Notes under the pieces: generated by a model
What the model was told of the DNA's origin: nothing
What the model saw: only the letters and a program-made list of their open reading frames with translations
Database searches by the model: none
NCBI RefSeq assembly: GCF_000426685.1
Contig: NZ_KE384553.1
Span: forward strand, 104,656-168,655
Direction: 5' to 3'
DNA length: 64,000 bases
DNA from: Solimonas flava DSM 18980
Lineage (GTDB): Bacteria; Pseudomonadota; Gammaproteobacteria; Nevskiales; Nevskiaceae
Program-made: the position numbers and the translations under genes
Shown here: one piece after another, positions 27,495 through 60,486 of the stretch
Layout of the letters: each line of letters opens with the position of its first letter
Numbering within the stretch: position 1 is the first letter of the stretch

Positions 27495-27767
27495 GTGAAC
27501 AAGCGTTCGCTTCACTACAACAAGCTGTCGCCGCGCGAGATGCAGGCGCTGTACCTGCTGATTTGCGGGCGCTCGACCAGAGAGATGGCGGAGAGACTCC
27601 AGATCTCGGTGCACACCGCCCACCACCATCGCCGCTGCGTGTACGAGAAGCTCAACGTGCGCAACACGGCCCAGCTCATGCGCGAGGCCTTCCTGGAGGG
27701 CTGGCTGGTGCGTCGAGAGGAGAGCGATGCGGCGCGCGGCGACCGGCGTCTGCGTCAATCGCCATAG
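27495..27767 (+). CDS. Small stand-alone LuxR-type HTH protein
   Basis: 90 residues from GTG 27495. Almost the entire protein is one GerE/LuxR helix-turn-helix: KLSPREMQALYLLICGRSTREMAERL, then SVHTAHHHRRCVYEKLNVRNTAQL. No receiver or ligand domain is present, so it is either constitutively active or modulated by a partner. It lies 189 bp after the operon above on the same strand and could regulate it. The start is uncertain because no strong ribosome site is seen. Confidence 0.65.
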   Translation: MNKRSLHYNKLSPREMQALYLLICGRSTREMAERLQISVHTAHHHRRCVYEKLNVRNTAQLMREAFLEGWLVRREESDAARGDRRLRQSP

Positions 27768-31035: not shown

Positions 31036-31752
31036 TCAGGCCGCGGCCGGTACTGCCGCCTGCAGACGGCGCTGCGCGCGCCCGTACTTCTCGTCGATGC
31101 TGCGCAGTACGTACTGCTGGTGGAAGTAGCGCTGCGCGCGCTGCTCGATGTACGCGCACGACGCCGGCGAGGCGGTGTCGTAGTAGATGGTGAAGTCGAG
31201 CAGATCGTCGCGGCCGAGCAGGTGCAGCGGCTCGTGGTCGACCGGCACCACGCCGAACTCGACGAAGTGCCGCAGCACCTGGTAGCGCGTCAGACCGACG
31301 ATGAAGTCGTAGCCGTGCGCGGCCGCGTGCAGCGCGCTGTGCCGCAGCAGCAGGCCGAGGGCGATGGTCGCGCGAAAGCGCGGCACGACGATCACGTTGT
31401 TGACTTCGAGCAGACGCAGGGGCGCGCCGTCGGCGCGCGTCGCGCGCGGCAGCACGCGGCGGAAATGATGATCGCCGTCGTCGACCGGCGTCAGCCGGAA
31501 GGTCGCCGCGGTCTGCGCGCCGAACTCGAGCAGGAAGCAGCGCGAATCGTCGGTCGGACGCAGCCCGGCGAGCGGAAAGCCGAGCGCGCCGTAGGTCTGT
31601 TCGAGCAACGCTTCGTAGGTGCGGCGCTGCAGCTGGCCGTCGATCTCGCGGATGCGGTAGCGCTCCGGGCGGTAGAGATCGAGCGACGAATCGGCGGCGC
31701 CTGCCGACGGCAGGTCGGCGACGGCGACGGCGGCGAGCGGAAGGCGGTTCAT
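31036..31752 (-). CDS. FeeM/LuxI-like N-acyl synthase (GNAT fold)
   Basis: 238 residues. The N-terminal RYRIREIDGQLQRRTYEALLEQTYGALGF layout, ATFRLTP in the middle, EVNNVIVVPRFR and GYDFIVGLTRYQVLRHFVEFG match the autoinducer-synthase-like branch of GNAT enzymes (FeeM N-acyl amino acid synthases and exosortase-associated acyltransferases). Those transfer a fatty acyl group from acyl-ACP to an amine. The acceptor cannot be read from sequence. It starts 12 bp after the HDO gene with a GAGGGGA site, so the two are one operon, downstream of a lux-box-like element and a LuxR gene. A signal synthase role is inferred from this context. Confidence 0.75.
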   Translation of the reverse strand: MNRLPLAAVAVADLPSAGAADSSLDLYRPERYRIREIDGQLQRRTYEALLEQTYGALGFPLAGLRPTDDSRCFLLEFGAQTAATFRLTPVDDGDHHFRRVLPRATRADGAPLRLLEVNNVIVVPRFRATIALGLLLRHSALHAAAHGYDFIVGLTRYQVLRHFVEFGVVPVDHEPLHLLGRDDLLDFTIYYDTASPASCAYIEQRAQRYFHQQYVLRSIDEKYGRAQRRLQAAVPAAA

Positions 31753-31764
31753 GTCGGGCTCCCC

Positions 31765-32463
31765 TCAGGCGGCGCGCTGGTGGTCGTCGAAGAAGCGCTC
31801 GACGCTGCGCAGCACGTCGTCGTACAGCGCCCCGTAGTAGCGGAAGGTGTAGCGGCGCGCGCGAATCACCTCGTCGAGCACCTCGGGGGCGGCGGCATAT
31901 TCGTTGACGGCGCGGCGCGCTTCCTCGAAGTGGCGGCGGTCGAACGAGGCGTGGCTGCGCAGGAAGGTGGTGGCCGTGTCCGGAATGCCGAGCCGGGCCG
32001 AGACCACGTCGGCCATGCGTCCGGCGAGTTCCACGCCCATGCCCTCGGTCGCGGCGGCGACGCCGAGGATCGCGCCGGGACGGGCGTGCGTGGCGAGGAA
32101 GTAGTTCTGCGTGACCATGCCCCAGACGCCGGGGCCCGGCGCGCGCTGCACGATGCGCTCGGCGTCGAGCCCGAGCCGCTGCAGATCCTTGAGGCAGAAC
32201 AGCTCGTGGCCGTGCTCCTCGTGCGCCTGTTCGAGCAGCCAGCCGCGCAGGCCGCGGTGCTCGTCGTCGAGCCGCGCGGCGGCGGTCGCCAGCGCGCGCG
32301 AGGTGTGACGCACGAGGTGGAAGGTTTCGCGCAGGAACAGCGCGTAGTGGTCGCGGCGCAGCTGGCCGGCCGCGAGTGCGGCCAGCAGCGGGTGGCCGAG
32401 GATCTGCGATTCGAAGTCGGCGCGGGTGGCGTCGAGCAACTGCGAGAACGGTTCCAAGCTCAT
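31765..32463 (-). CDS. Heme-oxygenase-like putative di-iron enzyme (HDO family)
   Basis: 232 residues, all-helical, of the TenA/PqqC/'iron-containing redox enzyme' superfamily. Candidate metal ligands follow the HDO pattern: E78-x-x-H81 (in LLEQAHEEHGHE), E140 (in ATEGMGVE) and H171-x3-D175-x2-H178. Family members include the fatty-acid decarboxylase UndA and N- or C-oxygenases such as SznF and BesC. Pairing with an acyl synthase suggests it tailors the fatty-acyl chain or the amine part of the product. Clear ribosome site (AGGGGGAGA) before ATG 32463. Substrate and reaction are unknown. Confidence 0.75.
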   Translation of the reverse strand: MSLEPFSQLLDATRADFESQILGHPLLAALAAGQLRRDHYALFLRETFHLVRHTSRALATAAARLDDEHRGLRGWLLEQAHEEHGHELFCLKDLQRLGLDAERIVQRAPGPGVWGMVTQNYFLATHARPGAILGVAAATEGMGVELAGRMADVVSARLGIPDTATTFLRSHASFDRRHFEEARRAVNEYAAAPEVLDEVIRARRYTFRYYGALYDDVLRSVERFFDDHQRAA

Positions 32464-32525
32464 CGGTTTCTCCCCCTGGCAGTCTTGCCTGCGGTGGAGT
32501 CTCGACCCGTGCCGATGCGGGGCGC

Positions 32526-32545
32526 ACCTGCCGCAACGGACAGGT
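32526..32545 (-). promoter_or_regulatory. lux-box-like element upstream of the HDO-acyltransferase operon
   Basis: ACCTGCCGCAACGGACAGGT: a 20-bp element with perfect 5-bp arms ACCTG / CAGGT, the length and ends of the classical lux box. Its centre is 72 bp before the HDO start, leaving room for a -42.5 activator position and a 30-nt leader. Two near-copies exist at 38216 and 38305. A CTTTCCGGAAAG palindrome lies next to it (32553-32564). Confidence 0.7.
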
Positions 32546-32604
32546 CGGCCGTCTTTCCGGAAAGGCGACGATCCCGATGCTGAGGATGCGATTGCGGCGG
32601 GGAT

Positions 32605-33378
32605 CTAGCCCCAGTCGATGAGCCCCTGCGAGAGGGCGATCGCCATCGCCTGCACGCGGTTGTTGGCCTGCAGCTTGCGCATGGCGTTTTCCAGATGGAA
32701 TTTCACGGTGCGCGCACCGATGCCCATCTGCAGCGAGATCTCCCAATCGGTCTTTCCGAATTTCGCCCAGTTCAGCGCCTCGCGTTCGCGGTCGCTGAGC
32801 ACCGGCGTTTCCTTGAGCAGCCCGAGATGGACCTTGGCCAGCGCCTCGTGCAGATGCGGCGTGAGGAATTCGATCATCACCGCGTGGCGGCGGTGCCGCA
32901 CCATCTCGCGCTCGTCGCAGATACAGGTGAAGAAGCTCGCCGAGCTGGATTGCGAAAAGCGGGCACCGAACGAGAAGCCCTCGCTCAGGCCGAAGGCGCG
33001 CGCGTCGGCATAGAACTGCTGGGCGCCGTCCACGACGTTGCGCTTGCGCAGCTCGTGCCAGAGCAGCGGCCGGCCGGCGCTGAACAGTTCGCGCGCGACC
33101 GGATCGACGCGGAAGTACTCGCGCTCGCGATATTGGCCAAGCCACTCGAGCGGGAAGTTGATGTGCATCTGCCGCGTGGTCGAGACGATGTTGGCGTCGG
33201 CGTCGAGCGCCGCCACGCAGATGTGCACCTTCTCGAGCGGAATCAGCTCCGAGGCCAGATGCATGAGCCGCTTCATCTGTTGCTCGGAGCCGACGTGGCG
33301 CGCGGTGTCGATGACGTCGAGCGCCTTGACCAGATCCAGCTTCGACAGATGTCGGGCGATTTCGGTGGCCGTCGGCAT
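32605..33378 (-). CDS. LuxR-type quorum-sensing regulator 1
   Basis: 257 residues. An N-terminal autoinducer-binding domain retains the residues typical of acyl-signal receptors: W79, Y83, the D92-P93 pair, W107 and G134, within WLGQY, VDPVAREL and LLWHELR. The C-terminal GerE HTH (about 192-257) starts LSDREREALNWAKFGKTD. ATG 33378 follows GGGGGAGA. It stands directly upstream of the HDO-FeeM pair, separated by 141 bp with a lux-box-like element, so it most likely activates that operon in response to its product. Confidence 0.87.
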   Translation of the reverse strand: MPTATEIARHLSKLDLVKALDVIDTARHVGSEQQMKRLMHLASELIPLEKVHICVAALDADANIVSTTRQMHINFPLEWLGQYREREYFRVDPVARELFSAGRPLLWHELRKRNVVDGAQQFYADARAFGLSEGFSFGARFSQSSSASFFTCICDEREMVRHRRHAVMIEFLTPHLHEALAKVHLGLLKETPVLSDREREALNWAKFGKTDWEISLQMGIGARTVKFHLENAMRKLQANNRVQAMAIALSQGLIDWG

Positions 33379-33667: not shown

Positions 33668-34240
33668 CTAGAGTCCGAGCACGGCGCGCAGCGCGCGCGC
33701 ATCGATCGTGCGCGGCGCATACAGCGGCCGCAGCAGCGTTGCCGCCGGCGCCGGCAGCGGCGCCTCGCCGTCGGCGTTGAGCAGGGCCGGATTGCGCGCG
33801 CGCGCCAGGCGGATCAGCGCCTGCTCGACGCAGGCGATCTCGGCGCCGGTGCCCGACGCCGGCAGGCCGCCGCGGTCGAGACGCCCGAGCAGGTGCAGGT
33901 GCGCGTCGAGACAGGGCATGCATGCCTGCGCCTGCGCGTAGATCCGCAGGCAGGCGTCGCTCAGGCAGACCTCGGCGAACGAGCCGCCGTCGGCACGGCC
34001 GACGTACCACGGCAGCGCCGCTGCGCGGCCGCGCAGGCTGAAGACGAAGCAGCCGCAGGCGGCGGCGAGGCCGTCTTCGCGCCCGGCGATGTCGGCCAGC
34101 ACGCGTCGCCGCGCGGCCGGTGTCGCGTCGAAACCTCCGTCGGCGGCGAGCGGCAGCTCGAACGGGCCGAACACGGCGAATGCGGTGCCGGCCCATATCG
34201 CGCGCCGATGCCGCGTCCGCTTGCGTGTGGCGTCCGGCAT
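33668..34240 (-). CDS. GIY-YIG-like hypothetical protein
   Basis: 190 residues. The segment GCFVFSLRGR followed by PWYVGRADGGSFAEVCLSD resembles the G-x-Y-V-F ... Y-V-G-(x)-S-F core of small GIY-YIG-related proteins of unknown function. No full nuclease catalytic set can be assigned. The N-terminus is basic, with five Arg/Lys in the first ten residues; there is no signal peptide (a short hydrophobic stretch is part of the fold). It diverges from a TetR gene, with overlapping inverted repeats between, so TetR control is likely. Family call is tentative. Confidence 0.5.
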   Translation of the reverse strand: MPDATRKRTRHRRAIWAGTAFAVFGPFELPLAADGGFDATPAARRRVLADIAGREDGLAAACGCFVFSLRGRAAALPWYVGRADGGSFAEVCLSDACLRIYAQAQACMPCLDAHLHLLGRLDRGGLPASGTGAEIACVEQALIRLARARNPALLNADGEAPLPAPAATLLRPLYAPRTIDARALRAVLGL

Positions 34241-34312: not shown

Positions 34313-34345
34313 AACTGGCCATTAGGACAGTGCCCATTGTCACTG
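34313..34345. promoter_or_regulatory. Overlapping inverted repeats, candidate TetR operator
   Basis: Two interlocked dyads share the same half-site: ACTG...CAGT (34314-34331) and CAGTG...CACTG (34328-34345). They sit midway in the 143-bp gap between the GIY-YIG-like gene and the divergent tetR gene, the usual place for an autoregulatory TetR site. Confidence 0.5.
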
Positions 34346-34383
34346 CGGCCTGCGAAGGTGGCGCTGTCATCCGAGCGACATCC

Positions 34384-35163
34384 ATGAAGCCCAAGTGCCA
34401 TCCAGCCTCTCACGCGCATGCCGGGACGCGACCGGTTTCCGCCGGCAGCGAGCCCGGCCTCGCGCTGCAACGCGGCCCGCGCGCCGTCAATCGCGTCTAC
34501 GGCGGCCGCGCCATGGCCGAGCTCAAGGCCGAGCGCCGCGAGCGCCTGATGAACGCGGCCTACGCGCTGATCGGCCGTGAGGGCTATGCGCGCCTGTCGA
34601 TCGAGCGCACCTGCGCCGCGGCGCGCGTCGCTACACGCCATTACTACGAGCACTTCCAGGGGCGCGAGGCCCTGCTGCACGGGCTGTTCGACCGTGTCGA
34701 GGCCGAACTCTGGCAGGCCGTCACGCGCGCCCTGACCGAGCCGGGCGTGGAAACCGGAGAACGCAGCGGCGCGGCGATCCGCGCTTTTGTGCGGCATGCG
34801 CTGTCCGATCCGATCCGGGCCCGCATCATGTGTCTGGAGAGCGTCGGCGTCAGTGCCGAACTCGAAGAAAAGCGGCGGCGCCTGATCCGTCGTTTCGCCG
34901 AGCTGATCCATCAGGTCTCGCGGCAGCTTGCGGCCGACGGCGTGCTGCCGGCCGCCGACTATCGGCTGTCCGGCATCGCCCTGGTCGGCGCGACTAACGA
35001 GCTGCTCGTCGAGTGGATCTCCGGCGGCATGCGTCTGACGGTCGAGGAAATGGAATTGCAGGTGCTCAACATCTTCCGCGCGCTGACCAAGGGCGCGGTC
35101 TATGCGCACGCCGAAGCCGCCTTGCCCCATGTGCCGCACGCGGCGGACCGCGCGCTCGCCTAG
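34384..35163 (+). CDS. TetR family transcriptional regulator
   Basis: 259 residues from ATG 34384. The HTH is clear (about 50-95): ERRERLMNAAYALIGREGY, then IERTCAAARVATRHYYEHF. The preceding NRVYGGR segment is conserved in many TetR proteins, which argues for the upstream start rather than the internal ATG at 34513. The C-terminal ligand domain is unremarkable (LESVGVSAELEEKRRR). It diverges from the GIY-YIG-like gene and is convergent with LuxR 2. The ligand is unknown; a fatty-acyl compound would suit the context but is not shown. Confidence 0.87.
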   Translation: MKPKCHPASHAHAGTRPVSAGSEPGLALQRGPRAVNRVYGGRAMAELKAERRERLMNAAYALIGREGYARLSIERTCAAARVATRHYYEHFQGREALLHGLFDRVEAELWQAVTRALTEPGVETGERSGAAIRAFVRHALSDPIRARIMCLESVGVSAELEEKRRRLIRRFAELIHQVSRQLAADGVLPAADYRLSGIALVGATNELLVEWISGGMRLTVEEMELQVLNIFRALTKGAVYAHAEAALPHVPHAADRALA

Positions 35164-35182
35164 GGAAAGTCTGAAAACTGCA

Positions 35183-35310
35183 GTCATCGTGAGTGAGGCC
35201 GCGCGGTGGCCGCGGCGATCCGGAGAGGCATCGCTTGCGCGGGGTGCCGCTGGATGGCTTCGTCGCCCGCGGCGCCTCGCCATGACGCTGCAGGCGCTTT
35301 TTCAGAGGCG
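35183..35310. repeat. Palindromic intergenic repeat copy B
   Basis: Begins GTCATCGTGAGTGAGGCC and closes with CCTCGCCATGACG (near 35275-35287). The following GCGCTTTTTCAGAGG is shared with copy A. Copies A and B sit 1.6 kb apart, each beyond the 3' end of a leftward gene (the GIY-YIG-like gene and LuxR 2). The shared tail can form a GGCGC...GCGCC hairpin in the leftward transcript. Confidence 0.65.
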
Positions 35311-35319
35311 CCCGGGGCT

Positions 35320-36093
35320 TTACCCCCAGTCGATCAAGCCCTGCGACAGCGCGATCGCCGCCGCCTGCACGCGGTTGCTCGCCTGCAATTTGTGCATGGC
35401 GTTGTCGATGTGGAATTTCACCGTGCGCGCGCTGACGCCGATCTGCAGCGCGATCTCCTGATCGGTTTTGCCGAACTTCGCCCAGGCCATCACCTCGCGC
35501 TCGCGCTCGGTCAGCGCCGACGGCTGGCGCGCCGGATTGAGCTGGATGCGCGCCAGCGCCGCGTGCAGGTGCGGCATGAGGTAGCCGATCAGCGCGATAT
35601 GGCGCGGATGGCGCCTGAGTTCGCGCGGCGCGCAGGCGACTGCGAAGGCGCTGACGCAGCGCAGCTGCGAGTGGCGCATGCCGAACGTGAAGCCGTCGTG
35701 CAGGCCGTGCGCGTCGGCGCGGCGGTACAGCGCCTGCTGCGCCGGCGAGCGATGACGGGCGCGCAGTTCGTGCCAGATGAGCGGCCCTTCGCCGCCCAGC
35801 AGCGCCGGCCAGGTCGGGTCGTCGCGCGCCGCGTCCTTCGCCAGATACTCGTCGACGAAGGCCTGCGGATAATCGATCAGCAGATGGCGGCTCAGGCCGC
35901 AGACCTGCGAGGACGCGTCGAGCGTCGCGAAGCAGGCGTGCAGGCCCTGCAGCGGAATCAGTCGTGCCGTGTGAGCGACGATCTGTCGGAACTGCTGTTC
36001 CGTGCCGGCCTTGTCGGCGAGCGACACCACGTCCAGCGTCTGCAGCAGTTCGGCTTTCGACAGATGGCGCGCGAGCGCGCTTGCGGTTCGCAT
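35320..36093 (-). CDS. LuxR-type quorum-sensing regulator 2 (paralogue)
   Basis: 257 residues, aligning to LuxR 1 end to end without gaps. D92-P93, W107 and G134 are kept, Y83 is kept, but the position of W79 is Phe, and the surrounding pocket (FVDEYLAKDAARDDPTW) differs. The HTH begins LTEREREVMAWAKFGKTDQE and both proteins end ALSQGLIDWG. A local duplication followed by pocket divergence is likely, giving a receptor for a related or different ligand. No synthase is adjacent to this copy. GGAGGGG precedes the ATG. Confidence 0.87.
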   Translation of the reverse strand: MRTASALARHLSKAELLQTLDVVSLADKAGTEQQFRQIVAHTARLIPLQGLHACFATLDASSQVCGLSRHLLIDYPQAFVDEYLAKDAARDDPTWPALLGGEGPLIWHELRARHRSPAQQALYRRADAHGLHDGFTFGMRHSQLRCVSAFAVACAPRELRRHPRHIALIGYLMPHLHAALARIQLNPARQPSALTEREREVMAWAKFGKTDQEIALQIGVSARTVKFHIDNAMHKLQASNRVQAAAIALSQGLIDWG

Positions 36094-36181
36094 GTCCCCT
36101 CCCTGGCCGCGGCGATTTCTGATCCCGGTGCGCGTGCCGATGGCGACTGTAGGTGGCGTCGCCGATGGCGCATCCTGCCAT

Positions 36182-36203
36182 GCCGGACGACCGGTCGTCC
36201 GGC
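36182..36203. promoter_or_regulatory. Perfect 22-bp palindrome upstream of LuxR 2
   Basis: Arms GCCGGACGACC / GGTCGTCCGGC without spacer, 89 bp before the LuxR 2 start. It fits an operator for a dimeric regulator better than a terminator because no T-run follows on either strand. Confidence 0.5.
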
Positions 36204-36236
36204 GCCGACCGGCGGTCTCGCGCCGGCGTGCGGCGC

Positions 36237-36268
36237 AAAAAATCCCCGACGCGCAGGGCGCGCCGGGG
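36237..36268 (-). terminator. Terminator for the secreted-protein gene 36308-37333
   Basis: Read leftward: CCCCGGCGCGC stem, short loop, GCGCGTCGGGG (one mismatch), then ATTTTTT. It lies 40 bp after the stop codon. Confidence 0.85.
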
Positions 36269-36307
36269 AAGAGGAGAGCCTTTCCTTTCGTCTGCGGTCG
36301 ACGGACG

Positions 36308-37333
36308 TCAGGGGCTCACGATCGCCGACGCCCAGCCGTCGGCGAAGGCCTGGCCCGATACCGGCAGGTCGATGCTGGTCGGCAGCAGGATCGAGGCGCT
36401 GGCGTCGTCGAGCCGCAAATGGTTGCGTCCGGCCGCCGCCGGCAGGCCGATCTTGAGGTTGATGACGGAATTGATCGCCGCCGCAGTGAACGGATCGCCG
36501 AAGCCGCAGCCGCTGGCGCGCGGCACCGTGAAGCTGTCGTCGACCTGCGTCGCACCTGCTACGTCGAGGCGGTTGAGCACGCCTTCCGGATAGCCGGCCG
36601 GTGTGCCGTCGAGCCGGTAGTAATTGCCGGACGCCGTGCCGGCGACGGCATTCTGCGGGCGCAGCACGATCGGGTTCTGATCCGAGCCGATGTAGCAGTT
36701 GGACCCGAGGAAGGGATGCTGCAGGTGGATCTTCACCGGCAGGTTCATGATCGGGACGCCGGTCTGCAGTGCCGCGAAGAGGTCGAACCCGGACGGCACA
36801 CCGGCCGATTCGAGCGTCGCCAGCACGCGGTTCAGATCGTTGTTGGTAATCAGCCGGCACAGCGGCGCGATCAGCAGATTGTGGCTCGTGCACAGCAGGC
36901 CGAGCAGGCCGCCGGGCACTTCGGCCGGATCGGCAAGCACGGCGCCTGTCGGCGGCGGCACGATGGCGTCGATGCCGCTGAACGTGCCGACCGGTACGGA
37001 CGCGCCGAACTGCACGTTGCTGTGTCCGGCGGTCGCCGGGGCGTTGCCGATCGCGATCGGGCCGAGCTGGATCACGCCCATCGAGCCGATCGCCAGCGAG
37101 CCGCCCGGCGAGTCGCTGGCCACGCAGATGCTCTGCGTGGTGACGCCGTCGCTTTCGAGCATCGTCGGATCGTCGACGGCACAGCGGTTGAACGGCGCCC
37201 AGCCGCCGTTGAGCGTCGGCGCCGCCTGTGCCGGTGGGGCAAGGAGCGCGGCGGCGCTTGCCGCGAGCAAGGTGCCGAGCAGCGGCAGGGCGGGCCACCA
37301 GGATGTGGACCGGGGACGCGGGTTGGTTTTCAT
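36308..37333 (-). CDS. Hypothetical secreted protein near the DUF1302 operon
   Basis: 341 residues with a long signal peptide (basic start, hydrophobic run about 17-37, cleavage near AQA-AP). The mature protein is rich in Gly, Pro and small residues, has about eight Cys (likely disulfides), and shows no known catalytic motif. It looks like an extracellular or periplasmic structural protein. It follows the smaller secreted protein gene, with a terminator-like hairpin between them. No family recognised. Confidence 0.6.
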   Translation of the reverse strand: MKTNPRPRSTSWWPALPLLGTLLAASAAALLAPPAQAAPTLNGGWAPFNRCAVDDPTMLESDGVTTQSICVASDSPGGSLAIGSMGVIQLGPIAIGNAPATAGHSNVQFGASVPVGTFSGIDAIVPPPTGAVLADPAEVPGGLLGLLCTSHNLLIAPLCRLITNNDLNRVLATLESAGVPSGFDLFAALQTGVPIMNLPVKIHLQHPFLGSNCYIGSDQNPIVLRPQNAVAGTASGNYYRLDGTPAGYPEGVLNRLDVAGATQVDDSFTVPRASGCGFGDPFTAAAINSVINLKIGLPAAAGRNHLRLDDASASILLPTSIDLPVSGQAFADGWASAIVSP

Positions 37334-37362
37334 GGCATCACGCTCCGTTTACAGCACGTCGA

Positions 37363-37400
37363 GAAAAAGGACGGCGAGGGCGCCTTGCGGGCCCTCGCCG
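37363..37400 (-). terminator. Terminator or attenuator between two secreted-protein genes
   Basis: Read leftward: CGGCGAGGGC, 7-nt loop, GCGCCCTCGCCG, then TCCTTTTTC. It ends only 30 bp before the start codon of the next gene, so it may attenuate rather than fully separate the two. Confidence 0.75.
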
Positions 37401-37416
37401 TGAACCACTCGCGGCA

Positions 37417-37962
37417 TCAGGGCGTCGACGTCAGCAGGCCCGACGGCGTGACGTTGAGCGTGAAGCCGGGGCTCGTGCAGGTGCCGGCCGGCGAGGTGCC
37501 GGTCAGCGAGAACGCCGGGATCGTCACCGTGTTGCTGCTGCCGTCGTAGACGCCCGGCACGTCGCCGTCGCAGTAGCCGAGCAGCGTCGTGAAGAGGCGT
37601 ACGCCGACGAAGGTCAGGTTGACCTTGTTGGTGCCCGGCACGCTGTCGGCGCGGATCGCCCACGGCAGGTTCTGGGCCTGCACGAGATTGCACAGGCTGC
37701 TGCCCGGCGTGAACGTCGCCGTGCTGACCTGGGCGATCTGCGTCGCCGGCGGAATCGGGAACGAGGCGATCGCGCCGCTGATGCTGAAGGTGACGTTGCA
37801 GGTGACGGGGATGTTGTTCTTCGTGATGCTGGCGCCGCTTCCTGAGGCGCTCCCCGAAGTGGCATTGACGTTGACCGTGCCCGCGAAGGCGGGGGCGGCG
37901 ACGAGGCCGGCGGCGAGGGCGGTGAGGCCGAGCAGTCGGCTGATGGTGAAAGGCAGTTTCAT
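37417..37962 (-). CDS. Hypothetical secreted beta-rich protein
   Basis: 181 residues. ATG 37962 follows a GGAG site and gives a textbook signal peptide (MKLPFTISRLLGLTALAAG, cleavage AFA-GT). The remainder is Ser/Thr/Gly-rich with alternating hydrophobic residues, four Cys and a SGSASGSGAS stretch, suggesting a beta-sandwich surface or matrix protein. It diverges from the large DUF1302 gene across a 495-bp region carrying two lux-box-like elements. Function unknown. Confidence 0.65.
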   Translation of the reverse strand: MKLPFTISRLLGLTALAAGLVAAPAFAGTVNVNATSGSASGSGASITKNNIPVTCNVTFSISGAIASFPIPPATQIAQVSTATFTPGSSLCNLVQAQNLPWAIRADSVPGTNKVNLTFVGVRLFTTLLGYCDGDVPGVYDGSSNTVTIPAFSLTGTSPAGTCTSPGFTLNVTPSGLLTSTP

Positions 37963-38215
37963 CGTTGATCTCCAGATAGGCATATGGGTCAGGTCCGGTT
38001 CGCGGCGGGTGCCGGAGTCGGTAAAGCCCTGCCAGACGCGGTAGTGGGGTCGATCCGGCGGATCGGTGCGCTGGCGAGGCGTGAGCGTTGTAGAGAGCCC
38101 GGTGGCGGGCGGTCAAACGGCGCCGTGTGTGGCCTCGGAGTGTCGAAATATTTCTTTGAATTCTTATTGTTGAACTGCTTGCGAGGCTTCGGAACGGGCT
38201 TCGGAGGTGCGCTTT

Positions 38216-38235
38216 CCCTGCCCCAAAGGACAGGC
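38216..38235 (+). promoter_or_regulatory. lux-box-like element (second copy)
   Basis: CCCTGCCCCAAAGGACAGGC matches the element at 32526 in 16 of 20 positions, including the inner GGACAGG. It lies in the 495-bp region between divergent secreted-protein and DUF1302 genes. Its distance to either start (about 222-254 bp) is large, so its role is less certain than that of the third copy. Confidence 0.55.
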
Positions 38236-38304
38236 TGTTTCCGGATGAGCGGTCGTGGCCGGGCCCGGCTGCGCCGCGCCGCCCCGGAGCACGCGCGGGC
38301 GCCG

Positions 38305-38324
38305 GCCTGCCCAAACGGACAGGT
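38305..38324 (+). promoter_or_regulatory. lux-box-like element (third copy) with -10
   Basis: GCCTGCCCAAACGGACAGGT matches the element at 32526 in 17 of 20 positions. A CAATAT sequence at 38346-38351 falls where a -10 would be if the box is centred near -42, giving a start near 38357 and a leader of about 100 nt to the DUF1302 start codon. Confidence 0.65.
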
Positions 38325-38457: not shown

Positions 38458-40728
38458 ATGCAGATCAACAGTCCGGCAGGTGGCGGCGTGCGGAGGCTCG
38501 CGCTGGTGTTCGCGGCGGTGCTCGGTACGCCGGTCGCGCAAGCGGCGGATTTCAATTTCAGCGATGAGCAATGGGGCGATTTCCGCTTCAGCTGGAACAA
38601 TCGCGTGACGCTCGGCGCGGCGATGCGCATGCAGCACCAGGACGAGCGCATCATCGACAAGCAGAACGTGCCGGGCCAGGCGACGTTCTGTGCGGAAACG
38701 CCGGCCAGCGTGCCGGGCCTGGAAGGACAGAACGGCGACTGCAAGTCGCTGGCGGGCGATCCGCTGCCGAGCCAGATCCTGCGCAGCGCGCGCGGCGGCT
38801 ACAACATCAACGGCGACGACGGCGACCTGAACTACGACAAGGGCGATATCACCTACAGCGGTATCTCGCTGCGCTCGACGTTCAGCGGCTCGTGGCGCAA
38901 TTACACGCTGAAGGTCGGCGGCCTCGGTTTCTACGACCCGGTCAACTACGACTTCAAGACGCATTCGCGCGATCTGGAGTATCCGGGGCGTAATACCGAT
39001 ACCGGTACGGTGCTGCTGCAGCGTTCCGACAAGCGGCCGGCGGACCTGGAGCGGGCGGCCGGCCTGCGCGCGCAGCTGCTGGAAGCCTATATCTCCGGCG
39101 TGTTCAAGCTCGGCGGCGAGCACGAGCTGACGCTGGCGGTCGGCCAGCAGTACCTGCGCTGGGGCGAGAGCACCTTCATGCTGTTCAACAACCTGAACCA
39201 GATCAATCCGATCTCGGCGCCGCTGTATCGGCTGCCCGGCTCGGAGGTGAAGGACGCCTATCTGCCGACCAATCTCGTCAGCGCGAGCATCGACCTGAGC
39301 CCCAAGCTCACGCTCAGCGGCTTTTACCAGCTGCACTGGGCGCCGACCGAGCCGGACGTGGCCGGCACCTTCATGTCGATCTCCGACGTCGCCGGCGGCG
39401 GCGACGGTCCGACGCCGATCTATTTGGGGCAGGGTCAGTACCCGGAGGATCCGCTGGGGCAGTACTACCCGACAGTGGCTGATGCGGCCTACACCACCGG
39501 CACGCGCACCGCATACCTGCTCGGTGAGCACTACGGGGACCCGCGCAATAGCGGCCAGTTCGGTTTCCGACTCGACTACTACGCGGACTGGCTCAGCGGC
39601 GGCACCGAGCTGAGCCTGTACGGCATGAACATCCACAGCCGCCTGCCGTACTACAGCGCCTACGCCTCCATCCAGTCCTGCTTCCATCCCGAAGAGTTCC
39701 AGAAGGGTGGAGGGTACGCAGAAGCTTTCAGCAGTTGCATCGATATGTACGGCACCGATTTTAATACGCCGGAAGGATTCGAAGCGCTGCGCCGCTACTA
39801 CTCGTATCCGGCTGATTCGATGAAGCCCTTTCTCGAATATCCGGAAGACATTCATATCTTTGGTGCCAGCTTCAACACCAATGTCGGCGACTGGTCGCTG
39901 GCCGGCGAGATCGCCTACAGCCCGAACCAGCCGGCGCAGATCAGCTATGTCGATGTGACCTACGCGGCGCTCCAGCCGGCGTTCCCGGACACGCCGGAAG
40001 ATGGCGGCTTCGGCTCCGCTCCCAATATGTTCTTCATCCAGGCGCCGACCAACCGGGTCTACATCCCGGACTACGTGGAAACGCTCTACCGCGGTCACGA
40101 CGTCGAAGCCGGCGACTACGTAAAGGGCTACGAGCGCCTGAAAGTCGGGCAGATCAGCCTGACCGGCATTCGTATCTTCTCCGGCAGCAACTTCCTGCAT
40201 GCCGACCAGATCCTGTTCGTCGGCGAGCTGGCCGCGGTCCGGGTCTTCGATCTGCCGTCGATCGACAAGCTGCAGTTCGAGGGCGGTACCGGCCGCAACC
40301 TGCACTGGGGCGTCGCGCAGACGGACTACGACCCGAACGCGCCTTATGCGGGCACGCCGGAGAACTTCTATTTCGACCGCCAGGTCAGTCCGCTCGACAC
40401 CGCCAACCCCGAGCATGCAAGCCGCAAGGACTTCGCCAGCGCCTTCGCCTGGGGCTACCGCGCGCGTCTGACGGCGACCTACAACGACGTGTTCTACGGC
40501 GTCGGCCTGGTGCCGGGCATCGAGATCTGGCACGACGTGCACGGCACTTCGATCTCGCCGGGACAGGACTTCGTCGAGGACCGCATCCAGACCACGGTCT
40601 CGAACGAATTCAAGTTCACGCAGAACTTCAGCGGCCTGGCGCGCTACGTGATCTTCTCCGGCGGCGGTTATCGCAACCTGCGCATCGACCGCGATTATGC
40701 CGAGCTGTCGTTCACCTACGCGTTCTGA
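38458..40728 (+). CDS. DUF1302 family outer-membrane protein (large copy)
   Basis: 756 residues. GGGAGGAG precedes ATG 38458; signal peptide ends near AQA-AD. The DUF1302 hallmarks are present: WNNRVTLGAAMRMQ, NINGDDGDLNYDKGD, VGQQYLRWGEST (about 235), ELSLYGMNIHSRLPYYS and a C-terminal LSFTYAF typical of outer-membrane barrels. It is about 150 residues longer than the copy at 534, with extra loops in the middle. It begins the DUF1302-DUF1329-YCF48-MMPL series. Family role is not established; the set looks like an envelope-spanning transport system. Confidence 0.87.
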   Translation: MQINSPAGGGVRRLALVFAAVLGTPVAQAADFNFSDEQWGDFRFSWNNRVTLGAAMRMQHQDERIIDKQNVPGQATFCAETPASVPGLEGQNGDCKSLAGDPLPSQILRSARGGYNINGDDGDLNYDKGDITYSGISLRSTFSGSWRNYTLKVGGLGFYDPVNYDFKTHSRDLEYPGRNTDTGTVLLQRSDKRPADLERAAGLRAQLLEAYISGVFKLGGEHELTLAVGQQYLRWGESTFMLFNNLNQINPISAPLYRLPGSEVKDAYLPTNLVSASIDLSPKLTLSGFYQLHWAPTEPDVAGTFMSISDVAGGGDGPTPIYLGQGQYPEDPLGQYYPTVADAAYTTGTRTAYLLGEHYGDPRNSGQFGFRLDYYADWLSGGTELSLYGMNIHSRLPYYSAYASIQSCFHPEEFQKGGGYAEAFSSCIDMYGTDFNTPEGFEALRRYYSYPADSMKPFLEYPEDIHIFGASFNTNVGDWSLAGEIAYSPNQPAQISYVDVTYAALQPAFPDTPEDGGFGSAPNMFFIQAPTNRVYIPDYVETLYRGHDVEAGDYVKGYERLKVGQISLTGIRIFSGSNFLHADQILFVGELAAVRVFDLPSIDKLQFEGGTGRNLHWGVAQTDYDPNAPYAGTPENFYFDRQVSPLDTANPEHASRKDFASAFAWGYRARLTATYNDVFYGVGLVPGIEIWHDVHGTSISPGQDFVEDRIQTTVSNEFKFTQNFSGLARYVIFSGGGYRNLRIDRDYAELSFTYAF

Positions 40729-40777
40729 ACGGGCCGTCGCCGCATACAACTACGAGATCTTTCTGAAGGAGAGCGCC

Positions 40778-42196
40778 ATGCGATTTTCGCGCGCGATGTT
40801 GCGTTGGACGATGTGCACGCTGCTGCTGTGCGGCGTGTCGGGACCGGCGGTGGCCAAGGTCAGCGAGGCCGAGGCGGCACAGCTCGGCAAGACGCTGACG
40901 CCGCTCGGCGCCGAGCCGGGGCCGAATCAGGACGGCACGATTCCGGCGTGGAAGGGCGCCGCCGTCTTCACGGAGGAGCAGAAGCATTACACCTACGCGC
41001 AGCTGGAGAAGCTGCGCAAGACCGATCCGGACCGCCTGAACATGACGCGGACCGCGCAGGGCGAGGCGGTCGACAAGCCGCTGTTCACGATCACGGCGCA
41101 GAACTACACGCAGTACGCCGAGCATCTGAGCGCCGGTCACCAGGAGATGTTCCGGCGCTATCCGGACTACAAGATGATCGTCTATCCGTCGGTGCGCGGG
41201 CATTTCGCGCCGGAGGAGATCAACGAAGCGGTGAAGTACAACGCGACGCACGCCGAGCTGGACGGCACCGACGACATCAGCGGCGCACGCCTGGCGACGC
41301 CGTTCCCGATTCCGAAGAACGGCGCCGAGGTGATGTGGAACAACCGCCTGAAGTTCCGCGGCGTGTCGGCGGTGCGGCGCTACAACAATCAGGCGATCGT
41401 CGACGCCGACGGCAGCTTCCAGATCTCCAAGCTGATCGAGGACGTGCGCTTCGAGTACGGCAACCTCAAGGACAAGAGCCGCGAGAACAACGTCATCGTC
41501 TACTACCTGCAGCGCACGCTGTCGCCGGCGCGCGTCGCCGGGCAGATCACGCTGGTGCACGAGATCTTCGGCAAGGGCACCAGCGGCCGCAACGCGTGGA
41601 TCTACAACCCGGGTCTGGCGCGTGTGAACCGCGCGCCGGAAGTCGGTTTCGACAATCCCTCGCTCGGGTCGGACGGCCTGCAGTTCAACGACCAGATCGA
41701 CATGTTCAACGGCTCGCTGTCGCGCTACGACTGGAAGCTGATCGGTAAGCGGGAGATCTACATCCCCTACAACGCGTACACGATGAGCGACCCGCGCTAC
41801 AAGTACAAGGACATCATCCGCAAGGGGCACATCAACCAGGATCTGGCGCGCTATGAACTGCACCGCGTCTGGGTCGTCGAGGCCAACCTGCGTCCGGGCC
41901 ACGCGCACCAGTTCAAGCGCCGCACCTTCTATCTCGACGAGGACTCCTGGACCCTGTCGCTGGTCGACTGCTACGACAATCGCGACAAGCTGTGGAAGCT
42001 GCAGGAAGGTCACGTCATCACGCTGCCGTTCCTGCCTGGTTCGACCACCGTTCCGGAAGTGATCTATGACCTGCAGAGCGGTCGCTACTTCATCACGGCG
42101 ATGGTCAACGAAGACAACGTCAACAACTTCGAGCTGAGCTTCGACCGCGAGTACTTCCTGCCGAAGAACCTGCGCAGCCTCGGCGAGCGCCGCTGA
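40778..42196 (+). CDS. DUF1329 family periplasmic protein
   Basis: 472 residues, AAGGAGAG before ATG 40778, signal peptide ending near AVA-KV. DUF1329 features are LGKTLTPLGAEPGPNQDGTIPAWKG split around a conserved G-A-E-x-x-x-N-x-D-G-T-I-P-x-W block at about residues 45-60, AGRVNRAPE-like ARVNRAPEVGFD, and the final YDWKLIGKREIYIPYN region. The fold is related to outer-membrane lipoprotein-sorting (LolA/LolB-like) families, so binding a lipid ligand is a reasonable family-based inference. It lies 49 bp after DUF1302, same operon. Confidence 0.88.
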   Translation: MRFSRAMLRWTMCTLLLCGVSGPAVAKVSEAEAAQLGKTLTPLGAEPGPNQDGTIPAWKGAAVFTEEQKHYTYAQLEKLRKTDPDRLNMTRTAQGEAVDKPLFTITAQNYTQYAEHLSAGHQEMFRRYPDYKMIVYPSVRGHFAPEEINEAVKYNATHAELDGTDDISGARLATPFPIPKNGAEVMWNNRLKFRGVSAVRRYNNQAIVDADGSFQISKLIEDVRFEYGNLKDKSRENNVIVYYLQRTLSPARVAGQITLVHEIFGKGTSGRNAWIYNPGLARVNRAPEVGFDNPSLGSDGLQFNDQIDMFNGSLSRYDWKLIGKREIYIPYNAYTMSDPRYKYKDIIRKGHINQDLARYELHRVWVVEANLRPGHAHQFKRRTFYLDEDSWTLSLVDCYDNRDKLWKLQEGHVITLPFLPGSTTVPEVIYDLQSGRYFITAMVNEDNVNNFELSFDREYFLPKNLRSLGERR

Positions 42197-42216: not shown

Positions 42217-43317
42217 ATGGACGATCGCATGAAGCGAAGAAGTCTTGCGGCGCTGGTCGTGGCCGCGGTCTGGTTCGCCGCCGGCGCGGCGCGTGCCGAT
42301 GATCCAGCGCAGGACCCGGCGCAGGCGCAGCGGGCGCCGCGCCCGGCGCTGATGGCGCCGCTCGCGGCGTCCGCGCCGCTGCTGGATCTGGCGCGGGCCG
42401 GACGGCGGCTGGTGGCGGTCGGCGCGCGCGGCAACATTGTGGTCTCGGACGACGGCCGCGACTGGCAGCAGGTGCACAGCCCGGTCGACGTGATGCTGAC
42501 GCGCGTGTTCTTCCTCGACGCGCGCCGGGGCTGGGCGGTCGGCTACGACGGCGCGATCCTGCAAACCGGCGACGGCGGGCGGCACTGGTCGGTGCAGCGC
42601 TGGGTGCCGGACCGCGGTCCGCTGTACGACGTACTGTTTCTCGATGCGCAGCGCGGCTTCGCGGTCGGCAGCTATGGAGCGCTGCTGCGCAGCGACGACG
42701 GCGGCGCGCACTGGCAGGAGATCGACAGCCCGATCCGCGAGCCGGGCCTGCACTTCAACGCGATCGCGCGGCTTGCCGACGGCACGCTGTTCATCGCCGG
42801 CGAGCGCGGCATGCTGGCGCGTTCGGCCGACGAGGGGGCGAGCTGGACGATGCTGGATTCGCCGTACCGCGGCTCGATGTTCGGCGTGCTGCCGAGCGGC
42901 GCGCACGGCGCGATGATCTTCGGTCTGCGCGGCTCGATCTACGTCACCGACGACGCGCGCGCGGTGCGCAGCATCGCCGTCGACGGCTGGGACGAATTCG
43001 ACCGCGAGACGGTGAGCGATCCGGCGGCGCTCGCCGCACTCGGCTGGCGGCACGTGGACAGTCCGTCGCACGAGAGTCTGTTCCGCGGCATCGCCGACGG
43101 CGATCAGGCGCTGCTGACCGGCGTCAACGGCGTCGTGCTGCAGGTGCCGGCCGATGGCGGCCCGGTGCGGGCGCTGGCCAGCGCCGAGAACGAAACGCTG
43201 TCGGGGCTGCAGCCGTTCGACGGACAGTGGATCGCCGTCGGCCTGCGCGGCGCGCGCGCGCTGCCGGTGGTCGCCGCCACGAGCCCGCGACTGGCGACGG
43301 CGGGAGCGAAGCCATGA
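42217..43317 (+). CDS. YCF48-like beta-propeller protein
   Basis: 366 residues with a signal peptide (about 1-27). Repeated blades carry the YCF48/BNR pattern: IVVSDDGRDWQQV, GAILQTGDGGRHWS, GALLRSDDGGAHWQEI and GMLARSADEGASWTML. The plant and cyanobacterial YCF48 (Hcf136) is a photosystem assembly factor. In non-photosynthetic proteobacteria these proteins occur with MMPL transporters, probably as periplasmic partners. The stop overlaps the MMPL start (ATGA). ATG 42217 or 42229 could be used. Confidence 0.85.
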   Translation: MDDRMKRRSLAALVVAAVWFAAGAARADDPAQDPAQAQRAPRPALMAPLAASAPLLDLARAGRRLVAVGARGNIVVSDDGRDWQQVHSPVDVMLTRVFFLDARRGWAVGYDGAILQTGDGGRHWSVQRWVPDRGPLYDVLFLDAQRGFAVGSYGALLRSDDGGAHWQEIDSPIREPGLHFNAIARLADGTLFIAGERGMLARSADEGASWTMLDSPYRGSMFGVLPSGAHGAMIFGLRGSIYVTDDARAVRSIAVDGWDEFDRETVSDPAALAALGWRHVDSPSHESLFRGIADGDQALLTGVNGVVLQVPADGGPVRALASAENETLSGLQPFDGQWIAVGLRGARALPVVAATSPRLATAGAKP

Positions 43318-45722
43318 GCGGGCCGGGCATGTCGCAGAACTCGGTGGCGCGGCACATCCTGCGCCTCGTCGAGCCGATCATCTTCGGTCACCGGCGGGCG
43401 CTGCTGATCGTGCTCGGCGTGGCGACGCTGCTGCTGGCCTGGCAGGCGTCGATGCTCAAGCCGCAGGCCGGCTGGCTGAAGATGGTGCCGCAACAGCATC
43501 CGTACATGCAGGTCTTCCTCAAGCACTACGCCAGCTTCGGCGGCGCCAACACCATCGTCGTTGCGCTCAAGGCCCGGCACGGCACCATTTACGAACCGCA
43601 GTTCATGGATCGACTGCGCCAGGTCACCGATGCGGTGTTCTTCGTGCCCGGTGTCGACCGCTCGCGCGTCAAGTCGATCTTCACGCCGAACACGATCTAC
43701 GTCGACGTGATCGAGGACGGGCTTGCCGGCGCCACCGTCGTGCCCGGCGACTACGCGCCGACGCCGGAGATGGTCCAGCGCATTCGCGCCAACGTCGGCA
43801 AGGCCAACGTCATCGGCCGCCTGGTATCGGAAGACGAAACCTCGGCGCTGGTGCTGGCCGAACTGCAGGATCTCGATCCGGTCAGCCGCGCGCCGCTCGA
43901 CTACGTCGCCGTCGGCCGGCAGCTCGAAAAGATCCGCGAGCAGTTCGAGGACGACCGGGTCAGCGTCGAGATCATCGGCTTCGCCAAGGTCGTGCACGAC
44001 ATGACCGAGGCCTCGGTCGAGGTGGCGATGTTCTTCGTCGTCGCGCTGCTGTGCATGGCGCTGCTGCTGTGGATCTACATCGGCTCGCTGTCGCTGGCGA
44101 TGATCGTGCTGCTGACCTCGCTGGTCGCCTGCGTCTGGGAGCTGGGCCTGCTGCACCTCGTCGGCTACGGGCTCGATCCGTTCGCGATGCTGGTGCCGTT
44201 CCTGATCATGGCGGTTTCGGTCAGCCACGGCGTGCAGTACGTCAACGCCTGGGCCAACGAGATCTCGACACGTGGCGCGACCGGCTACCAGGCCTCGCTG
44301 GCGACCTTCCGCGCGCTGGCGATCCCCGGCGTGGTGGCGCTGCTGACCAACGTCGCCGGCTTCTCGACGATCTACCTGATCGACATCGACGTGATCCGCG
44401 AGATGTCGATCAACGCCGCGTTCGGCATGGCCGGCGTGATTCTCGTCAACAAGGCCTTGCTGCCGGCGGTGCTGTCGTATCTGCGCCTGCCGAACGTCGA
44501 GAAGTTCCGCCATGCGCAGGCGGTGCGCGAGCGCATCGGCGACGCGGTGTTCCGGCGCATGTCGGTGCTGACCGAGCGCGGTCCGGCGATCGCCGTGATC
44601 TGCGTCTGCATCGGCCTCGCCGTCTACGGCGCGCTGCGCTATCCGCAGGTGCAGATCGGCGATACCACCGAGGGCGTGCCGGAGCTGCGTCCGGACTCGC
44701 GCTTCAACCGCGACGCCCGGCAGATCGCGCGCGACTTCTGGCTCAGCACCGATATCTTCACGGTGGTGGCGGAGACTTTTCCGGACGCCTGCATCGACTA
44801 TCGGGCGATGGCCGAGATCGACCGCTTCGCCTGGTATCTGCGTAACACCGCGGGCGTGCGCGACGTGTTCACGCTGTTCGATATGTCGAAGCTCGCCTAT
44901 GCCGGCCTCAACGAGGGGCGTCTCAACGCGCAGGTGATTCCGCGCGACAAGTACTCGCTGGCGCAGTCGACGGCGCTGGTGCCGACCACCACCGGCCTGC
45001 TGAACAAGGATTGCAGCGCGCTGGCGATCCAGGCCTACACGACCGACCACAAGGCCTCGACCCTGGCCGGCATCGTCGAAGCCGTGAAGCGCTACGAGGC
45101 GGGCGAGAACCAGGACCGCCGCGTGCAGTTCCGGCTGGCGTCCGGCAACAACGGCGTGATGGCGGCGACCAACGAGGAGGTGCGCCGCAACGAGCTGCCG
45201 GTGGTGATCTACGTGTACGCGGTGGTGCTGCTGTTCCTGTGGCTGTCGTTCCGCACCGTGTCCGGCGTGCTCTGCGTCGGCCTGCCGCTGGCGCTGGTGA
45301 CGCTGCTCGGCTACGCGCTGATGGTCGAGATGGGCATCGGCCTGAAGGTGGCGACGCTGCCGGTGCTGGCTTTCGCCTGCGGCATCGGCGTCGACTACGG
45401 CATCTACAGCTATTCGACGGTCGCCGCCGGCATGCGGCGCGGCCTGAGCCTGCGCGACGCCTATTACGAGAAGATGCGTTCGACCGGCAAGGCGACGCTG
45501 TTCACCGGCGTCGGCCTGGCCAGCGGCGTGGCGATGTGGATCTTCTCCAAGCTGCAATTCCAGCGCGACATGGGCATCCTGCTGGTGTTCGGCTTCACCG
45601 CCAACATGATCGGCGCGATCGTCGTGCTGCCGGCGCTGGCGCACTTCCTGGCGCGCGAGGAATACCGGCACCGCAACAAGGACCTCACGGTCGGCGCCGA
45701 GGAGGCTTTCCAGCCGCGCTAG
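43314..45722 (+). CDS. MMPL/RND-type transporter
   Basis: 802 residues, inner-membrane, about 12 transmembrane helices in two repeats (first block about 27-45 plus 240-400, second about 425-445 plus 625-790), each with a large periplasmic domain. The MMPL/HAE3-like motifs are FLIMAVSVSHGVQYVN and its counterpart LAFACGIGVDYGIYSYS, which carry the proton-relay Asp and Ser residues. Proteins of this class move lipids, hopanoids or fatty-acid derivatives. With the outer-membrane DUF1302 and lipid-binding-like DUF1329 partners it could form a lipid export route. Its stop is 9 bp from the convergent mgtE stop. Confidence 0.87.
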   Translation: MSGPGMSQNSVARHILRLVEPIIFGHRRALLIVLGVATLLLAWQASMLKPQAGWLKMVPQQHPYMQVFLKHYASFGGANTIVVALKARHGTIYEPQFMDRLRQVTDAVFFVPGVDRSRVKSIFTPNTIYVDVIEDGLAGATVVPGDYAPTPEMVQRIRANVGKANVIGRLVSEDETSALVLAELQDLDPVSRAPLDYVAVGRQLEKIREQFEDDRVSVEIIGFAKVVHDMTEASVEVAMFFVVALLCMALLLWIYIGSLSLAMIVLLTSLVACVWELGLLHLVGYGLDPFAMLVPFLIMAVSVSHGVQYVNAWANEISTRGATGYQASLATFRALAIPGVVALLTNVAGFSTIYLIDIDVIREMSINAAFGMAGVILVNKALLPAVLSYLRLPNVEKFRHAQAVRERIGDAVFRRMSVLTERGPAIAVICVCIGLAVYGALRYPQVQIGDTTEGVPELRPDSRFNRDARQIARDFWLSTDIFTVVAETFPDACIDYRAMAEIDRFAWYLRNTAGVRDVFTLFDMSKLAYAGLNEGRLNAQVIPRDKYSLAQSTALVPTTTGLLNKDCSALAIQAYTTDHKASTLAGIVEAVKRYEAGENQDRRVQFRLASGNNGVMAATNEEVRRNELPVVIYVYAVVLLFLWLSFRTVSGVLCVGLPLALVTLLGYALMVEMGIGLKVATLPVLAFACGIGVDYGIYSYSTVAAGMRRGLSLRDAYYEKMRSTGKATLFTGVGLASGVAMWIFSKLQFQRDMGILLVFGFTANMIGAIVVLPALAHFLAREEYRHRNKDLTVGAEEAFQPR

Positions 45723-47081: not shown

Positions 47082-47429
47082 CGGGCCTCCGGAAGAACCG
47101 CGCACAGCTTAAGAAGACGTGCTTGACCGCCATCTGAACCGGGATGGCCGGCTGGCACCGCCGGACGAGTCGCCGTCGCCGGCGACGGCGCGAAAGCGGG
47201 CGCGAGCATGCCGTAAGACATCGGACTTGTCGAAAGGTTTTTGAGCGCATGCGCGCGCCGCTCGGGCGGCCGGCGAGCGGGCGGCGCGTGCCGCCGCAAG
47301 GACGCGCCGCCGGCGCTCGCGGCGGCTTTCCGCGGCCGCCGTCGTGGCGGCAAAAAGACGGTGCGCGGCTGTCGATCCGCGACGCCGTCGTTCGACGTGT
47401 CAGTGAATCAGGCCCAACGGAGACACGAC
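47082..47429. other. 348-bp gene-free region between mgtE and the GST gene
   Basis: Very GC-rich with several imperfect hairpins (for example around 47165-47185 and 47305-47340). No credible start-plus-ribosome-site reading frame is seen. It must hold the promoters of the divergent mgtE and GST genes, but no clear -35/-10 pair stands out. Confidence 0.5.
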
Positions 47430-48044: not shown

Positions 48045-48137
48045 CGATGAACGACAGCGGTCTTCACCGCGCATTCAAACATCCGCTGGCATGCTGCGTC
48101 CCGCCGCCGCATGCGGCGCCGACCCGGGAGCGGAGCG

Positions 48138-48557: not shown

Positions 48558-48576
48558 CGGCGGCGTTGTGCGCGCC

Positions 48577-49293: not shown

Positions 49294-49312
49294 GGTGTCC
49301 ATTCCCGGTCCG

Positions 49313-51237: not shown

Positions 51238-51260
51238 GCTTCGCGGCTTCTTCTTTTGCG

Positions 51261-51346
51261 GTCATTCCCGCGAAGGCGGGCATCCAGGGATCGGGTATTG
51301 CGCGTGACGAACGTGCGCGCCGGATGCCCGCTTGCGCGGCAATGAC
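51261..51346. repeat. Palindromic repeat between urtB and urtC
   Basis: GTCATTCCCGCGAAGGCGGG and, inverted 61 bp on, GGATGCCCGCTTGCGCGGCAATGAC-type sequence. It is the widespread 'GTCATTCCCGCGAA' inverted repeat, a different subfamily from the copies at 53102 and 60511. Confidence 0.8.
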
Positions 51347-51375
51347 GTGAAAAGGATGGACGGTTGTGGCGCATC

Positions 51376-59560: not shown

Positions 59561-60486
<926 letters not shown>

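Follow-up and report, generated by a model that had tools for sequence, protein, structure and literature searches.

A LuxR-linked operon pairing a heme-oxygenase-like enzyme with a FeeM-like acyltransferase in Solimonas flava: a candidate source of a non-acyl-homoserine-lactone signal

To our knowledge, few LuxR receptors are known that respond to a signal other than an acyl-homoserine lactone (AHL). Here, we analyzed a stretch of 64,000 nucleotides from Solimonas flava DSM 18980 (contig NZ_KE384553.1; hereafter, the window, with positions counted from its first nucleotide), in which the gene of a LuxR receptor (LuxR1) is followed by those of a heme-oxygenase-like di-metal oxidase (HDO) and a FeeM-like acyltransferase. 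In our assessment, the best explanation of this locus is a LuxR-autoregulated operon for a non-AHL acyl signal (probability, about 0.5).

The locus resembles the LuxR-LuxI quorum-sensing system CviR/CviI in its receptor architecture, in the AHL-sensor residues that were checked, and in the inverted-repeat box preceding the synthesis gene, but differs from it in that no LuxI was found in the window's genome and the synthesis operon consists of an HDO and a FeeM-like enzyme. PluR/PauR of Photorhabdus likewise combine a LuxR receptor with a non-AHL signal, as proposed here; however, according to the accessible part of PMC4414361, their motifs are altered (TYDQCS, TYDQYI), whereas the checked residues are kept in LuxR1, and the enzymes differ. 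For the acyltransferase, the N-acyl amino acid synthase FeeM (PDB 2g0b) is the top fold match, and a weak Pfam match is found in two of four family members, although identity is ~17%, the model is partly of low confidence, and the gene lies here beside an HDO and a LuxR. The HDO shares its fold and the full 3H/3C ligand set with UndA and CADD as presented in the accessible text of PMC13108848, but its gene shares a LuxR-linked operon with that of an acyltransferase; in that same portion of the review, the words luxr, quorum, signal, and acyltransferase are all absent. Among the top-ranked results of a literature search that covered mainly openly accessible papers, no title concerned the HDO-acyltransferase pair. 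Finally, a nearby cassette made up of a DUF1302 gene, an RND pump gene, and two others parallels AmeABCD (PMC6394551, in the part available), but is preceded by two LuxR-type boxes. The core features of the locus are as follows:

32605..33378, minus strand: LuxR1 (ATG at 33378, stop at 32605), a CviR-like receptor with autoinducer-binding and helix-turn-helix (HTH) domains; W79, Y83, D92, P93, and W107 kept
31765..32463, minus strand: HDO carrying the 3H/3C set E83, H86, E140, H171, D175, and H178
31036..31752, minus strand: putative FeeM-like N-acyltransferase of GNAT fold, starting 12 bp past the HDO stop
32528..32543: degenerate lux-type box CTGTCCGTTGCGGCAG (minus strand), 64 bp upstream of the HDO start

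Conservation and distribution of the receptor-enzyme order

All three are complete minus-strand genes, separated by 141 bp and then 12 bp; an earlier sequence-only reading of this DNA had described the same leftward run, and its coordinates were confirmed. With a three-row profile, the acyltransferase was recovered from 4 of the 85 order genomes and from 1 of the 369 class genomes, and with a four-row profile from 1 of 398 genomes of the phylum; in the class and in the phylum, the single hit is the window's own genome. In these two runs, up to seven candidates were scored per genome among the matches listed. Plasmids and viral contigs gave no acyltransferase match, and a search of the genome contigs with two peptide patterns returned three acyltransferase loci. 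The acyltransferase is carried by the window's own genome, S. variicoloris DSM 15731 (G046), Sinimarinibacterium sp. CAU 1509 (G041), and a Nevskiales metagenome-assembled genome (MAG; G043). As the family is very rare in the collections, generality rests on three lineages.

The order LuxR-HDO-acyltransferase is conserved in all four carriers, and of the 11 genus genomes, the same 4 contain LuxR1, the HDO ortholog, and the acyltransferase. The sequence-only reading had named rare adjacency of the two enzyme genes in relatives as an observation that would count against it; we found them adjoining in every carrier, with the same LuxR upstream. The acyltransferase is ~99% identical to its S. variicoloris copy, and identity of the system to that of the other two lineages is 48 to 57% for Solimonas. 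HDO orthologs (>440 bits) are confined to the four carriers, other matches in the order reaching at most 125 bits, and LuxR relatives (E up to 1e-20) number two per Solimonas genome and one in each other carrier.

Downstream of the acyltransferase, the operon differs between lineages. In the Nevskiales MAG, it continues with a protein of the FA_desaturase family, the solved relatives of which are alkane 1-monooxygenases (PDB AlkB, 1.1e-49), followed by an alpha/beta hydrolase. The same two genes follow in order in CAU 1509, where the AlkB-like protein is 62% identical and the hydrolase was judged by eye. Both Solimonas genomes carry a DNA glycosylase gene on the opposite strand instead. Three AlkB relatives lie elsewhere in the window's genome, the best of them being 42% identical, versus 62% between the two operon copies, and hence there is no clear AlkB ortholog acting in trans.

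The two enzymes and the LuxR receptors

The HDO matches the Pfam family Haem_oxygenas_2 (1.6e-23), and its predicted model (pLDDT, 74.9) matches the folds of 3dde (2.8e-6), CADD (2.9e-4), and UndA (3.3e-3), and also TenA. All 50 distant homologs and all three distinct orthologs share, without exception, residues E83, H86, E140, H171, D175, and H178, which correspond to the 3H/3C set (three histidines, three carboxylates) described for HDOs in the available part of PMC13108848. Of the metal ligands proposed from sequence alone, E140, H171, D175, and H178 were thus upheld, whereas H81 was not: two of three distinct orthologs have Gly at this position, and 29 of 50 distant homologs have Glu. The invariant residues are instead E83 and H86, and position 78 is Glu in 25 of the 50. 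From conservation of the ligand set, the HDO is predicted to hold two metals and to use O2.

HDO relatives were found in 40 other genomes of the 369-genome class sample. Across 57 HDO loci compared in the class and the order (duplicates included), a neighbor family of ~270 amino acids (aa) recurs in 45 and one of ~225 aa in 44, along with a neighbor of ~500 aa; in the one locus examined (L022), the neighbors comprise a short-chain dehydrogenase, a TPR protein, and an AMP-binding protein. Since these neighbors are never the acyltransferase, they are uninformative on the substrate of the window's HDO. The window's genome itself encodes a second, distant HDO (L067; contig 4, 55160-55795), the scanned upstream frame of which matched no family. 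The group to which this second HDO belongs recurs in the compared loci with two or three constant neighbors and perhaps takes part in an uncharacterized lipid pathway.

For the window's acyltransferase, no Pfam or NCBIfam match was obtained even at E 10. Its top PDB match, 2g0b, was recorded at E 8.3e-5 with a TM-score of 0.41 to 0.50, on a poor model (pLDDT, 61.8), and AHL synthases were unnamed among the best 50 of 984 fold matches. None of the four family members matches Autoind_synth at E up to 10. An invariant stretch, L-L-E-V-N-N-V, includes Asn119 in all four members; we take it to sit at the position of the LuxI E-x-S-R motif, and because it occupies that place, the Arg of the LuxI motif is missing in all four. 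R86 and E116, which we presume to correspond to LuxI core positions, are kept. Two other assignments were tried and set aside: AHL synthase as the first choice, given the absence of an Autoind_synth match, the Arg-to-Asn difference in E-x-S-R, and the sole LuxI-family match being an Acetyltransf_5 protein; and an exosortase/PEP-CTERM-linked acyltransferase, for which no NCBIfam match was obtained at E up to 10.

LuxR1 is of the ligand-binding receptor type (Pfam Autoind_bind, 9.2e-19; GerE, 3.6e-17), and CviR is its nearest PDB chain (8.9e-34). Its positions were tentatively matched to TraR through the CviR alignment. The AHL-sensor motif of TraR comprises W57, Y61, D70, P71, W85, and G113 (PMC4414361, accessible part). 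The AHL-sensor residues W79, Y83, D92, P93, and W107 are kept in LuxR1 of all four carriers, as are glycines near the motif, one of which may be the equivalent of TraR G113. A second receptor, LuxR2 (35320-36093), is of the same type with no adjoining synthase; it carries Phe at the first motif position (W79) in both Solimonas genomes and is 65% identical to its S. variicoloris copy, versus 98% for LuxR1. A 90-aa protein at 27495-27767 consists of the LuxR-type HTH domain (GerE) alone, without a sensor domain.

Among the 11 genus genomes, 7 have Autoind_synth matches, which exceed the cut-off in 5. In the window's genome, the sole match (25.7 bits) is a protein that matches Acetyltransf_5 at 1.1e-30, followed by an open frame that resembles an acyltransferase by eye; we take this pair to serve ornithine-lipid synthesis. 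Apart from this protein, no Autoind_synth match, and thus no LuxI, was found in the window's genome.

lux-type boxes and the genes beside them

In the LuxR-HDO gap, CAU 1509 and the Nevskiales MAG carry a perfect CTGTCC-N4-GGACAG palindrome, upstream of the HDO start by 83 bp in the former and 86 bp in the latter (start codons for these distances were chosen manually), and 0 of 5,000 shuffles were as good in either relative. In both Solimonas genomes, the site in this gap has two mismatches and lies 64 bp before the start, with 43 and 60 of 5,000 shuffles being as good. Thus, the lux-box-like element of the sequence-only reading is present at 32528-32543, yet is weak alone, its perfect form being found in the two relatives. 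Sites with up to two mismatches number six in the window, a count reached by 5 of 100 shuffles and not compelling alone, and four in the S. variicoloris stretch (reached by 3 of 200).

Genome-wide, the perfect palindrome occurs six times in CAU 1509, twice in the Nevskiales MAG, and once in a genome without this LuxR (G042). The wider pattern CTGNCC-N4-GGACAG has three sites in the window's genome (4.46 Mb), all at 34315-38322 and <5 kb from LuxR1. Elsewhere, it has 2 sites in S. variicoloris (both at this locus), 15 in CAU 1509, 2 in the Nevskiales MAG, and 5 in total across the 7 genus genomes that lack the system. For CAU 1509, the evidence lies in the box counts; for Solimonas, it lies in their clustering, the window's genome having all three of its sites within 4 kb and none elsewhere in 4.46 Mb. 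The features around these sites are as follows:

33668..34240, minus strand: protein of 190 aa with no Pfam match, 74 bp downstream of the 34315 box
34315..34330: box CTGGCCATTAGGACAG, flanked by the 190-aa gene (minus) and the TetR gene (plus); an identical box is found in S. variicoloris
34504..35163, plus strand: TetR-family regulator with weak, sub-cut-off matches to FadR/FasR models; start codon chosen manually
35320..36093, minus strand: LuxR2, a LuxR1 paralog (49% identical), Phe replacing W79
37417..37983, minus strand: PraB-like protein, its gene transcribed away from the exporter operon; at 45.4 bits, the match is below the NCBIfam cut-off (120)
38218..38233: box CTGCCCCAAAGGACAG, in the promoter region from which the PraB-like gene and the exporter operon diverge
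38307..38322: box CTGCCCAAACGGACAG, 135 bp upstream of the DUF1302 start
38458..40728, plus strand: DUF1302 protein, gene 1 of the exporter cassette
40697..42196, plus strand: DUF1329 protein, gene 2
42217..43317, plus strand: YCF48/BNR protein, gene 3
43227..45722, plus strand: MMPL/RND transporter, gene 4

The TetR gene may share the 34315 box with the 190-aa gene. Two boxes (38218 and 38307) lie between the PraB-like gene and the DUF1302-DUF1329-YCF48-MMPL operon, and in S. variicoloris a box lies 138 bp before the DUF1302 gene. AmeABCD is an RND exporter for monoterpene detoxification, of which AmeA is the DUF1302 outer-membrane protein (PMC6394551, in the part available). In gene content, the window's operon resembles this exporter, as both unite a DUF1302 gene and an RND gene with two others in one cassette. 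None of the following figured in the sequence-only reading: the second LuxR, the three further boxes (34315, 38218, and 38307), the exporter operon preceded by the last two, and the AlkB-like and hydrolase genes that extend the operon in relatives.

A DUF3450-MotA/TolQ/ExbB-ExbD operon also has a perfect box upstream of its DUF3450 gene, at 534 bp in CAU 1509 and 632 bp in the Nevskiales MAG. Between the two genomes, five genes of this operon are 77 to 91% identical; the domain scan covered the DUF3450 gene in both and the remaining genes in CAU 1509. In CAU 1509, other sites precede a DUF2846 gene (by 57 bp), an ETF-QO gene (by 108 bp), and a lipoprotein-like frame (by ~61 bp).

Of 14 window genes compared with S. 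variicoloris DSM 15731, 11 are 92 to 99% and 3 are 56 to 65% identical. With its counterpart there, the DUF1302 gene shares 59% identity, while DUF1329, YCF48, and MMPL of the same operon are at 92 to 99%; either fast divergence or replacement could account for this. A 341-aa protein (36308-37333; no Pfam match, signal peptide by eye) is 56% identical to an S. variicoloris gene that is inverted there relative to LuxR2. Farther along, the S. variicoloris counterpart of MgtE (45732-47105) is directly followed by that of 60630-62360; the ~13 kb between them in the window (47241-60486) thus reflect either an insertion here, a loss in S. variicoloris, or a rearrangement. The window also encodes, at 21658-23415, a protein with the PSD2-PSD5/PSCyt3 domain set (DUF1585-DUF1595), families that are associated with planctomycetes.

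Weighing a signal operon against its rivals

In the circuit that we propose, the FeeM-like enzyme would join an acyl group from acyl-acyl carrier protein to an amine, probably an amino acid, and the HDO would oxidize the amine or the acyl part with O2 at its di-metal site, by decarboxylation, desaturation, or N-oxidation, the metal site being backed by conservation. In the two relatives only, the AlkB-like monooxygenase and the alpha/beta hydrolase may tailor the product. The operon product would bind LuxR1, and LuxR1 would bind boxes of the CTGNCC-N4-GGACAG type, the distribution of which is observed, raising its own synthesis operon; in Solimonas, it may also raise the AmeABCD-like exporter, possibly exporting the signal. 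With a probability somewhat short of even odds, this would be a new class of LuxR quorum-sensing signal: an HDO-oxidized N-acyl amine (oxidized by an AlkB-like enzyme too in two relatives), with a FeeM-type synthase replacing LuxI, an AHL-pocket receptor, and an RND exporter under the same boxes. The signal interpretation offered by the sequence-only reading is supported in part, by the adjacency with LuxR and the Asn in place of the LuxI Arg (4 of 4 each), the lack of a LuxI, and the ligand-binding type of LuxR; it erred in one metal ligand and missed the AlkB/hydrolase genes and the exporter.

Several points weigh against a signal operon. Product, ligand, and binding are all predicted from sequence and models. 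The assignment of the acyltransferase as FeeM-like is weak, as the FeeM Pfam profile matches two of the four aligned members (best E, 0.00096) with no clear profile match and the structural model is poor, and adjacency across few lineages may in part reflect shared ancestry. As to the boxes, 8 of the 11 genus genomes, including both Solimonas, have no perfect palindrome; one position of the wider pattern was opened after the window sites had been seen; and the degenerate Solimonas HDO box falls outside that pattern. A reversed-pattern control gave no site in the window's genome or the Nevskiales MAG, one in CAU 1509, two in S. variicoloris, and zero to five in others, and since the S. variicoloris control equals its true count of two, only location speaks there. 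Of the 15 CAU 1509 sites, one of which is the HDO box itself, 4 lie inside called genes and ~4 are intergenic within 300 bp before a start, and the relatives' boxes mark the DUF3450-ExbB-ExbD operon and others, not this exporter. Lastly, the kept motif of LuxR1 cuts both ways, as it would suit an N-acyl amide ligand and, equally, a plain AHL from neighbors.

The main rival, to which we grant a minority but sizable chance, holds that the product is an effector (a surfactant or a membrane-active or hydrocarbon-handling N-acyl lipid) and that LuxR1 is a solo receptor sensing neighbors' AHLs or another ligand. The AlkB-like enzyme and hydrolase as operon partners in two relatives, the boxes before exporter and ExbB/ExbD-type operons, and the AHL-sensor residues kept in LuxR1 would all fit such an effector. 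However, the occurrence of LuxR1 and the synthase in the same 4 of 11 genomes, together with the perfect box on the operon in two relatives, is what an autoinducing pair would show. A single molecule may also serve as both effector and signal. An AHL variant, made by a diverged AHL synthase with the HDO and AlkB only modifying the acyl chain, is unlikely: the CviR-like LuxR1 with its retained sensor residues, the GNAT-type fold, and R86 and E116 at presumed LuxI core positions agree with it, but Autoind_synth is unmatched in the four members at E up to 10, the LuxI E-x-S-R Arg is Asn in all of them, and FeeM, with AHL synthases unnamed in the best 50 of 984, is the top fold match. That the three genes are chance neighbors without a common pathway is highly improbable, since, common as HDO relatives are (40 other genomes of 369, the acyltransferase being found there in the window's genome only), the order is kept in three lineages at ~50% identity, a box precedes the HDO, and the genes share one distribution (the same 4 genomes of 11).

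As the consensus sites are few and confined to one locus in the window's genome, the proposed circuit of a LuxR-autoregulated signal operon is testable in a laboratory host. Should the operon product prove to be the ligand, the known signals would gain one that is made by oxidative di-metal chemistry and read by an AHL-type pocket. If true, cell-cell signaling would be tied to AlkB-like enzymes and to an exporter of apolar compounds.

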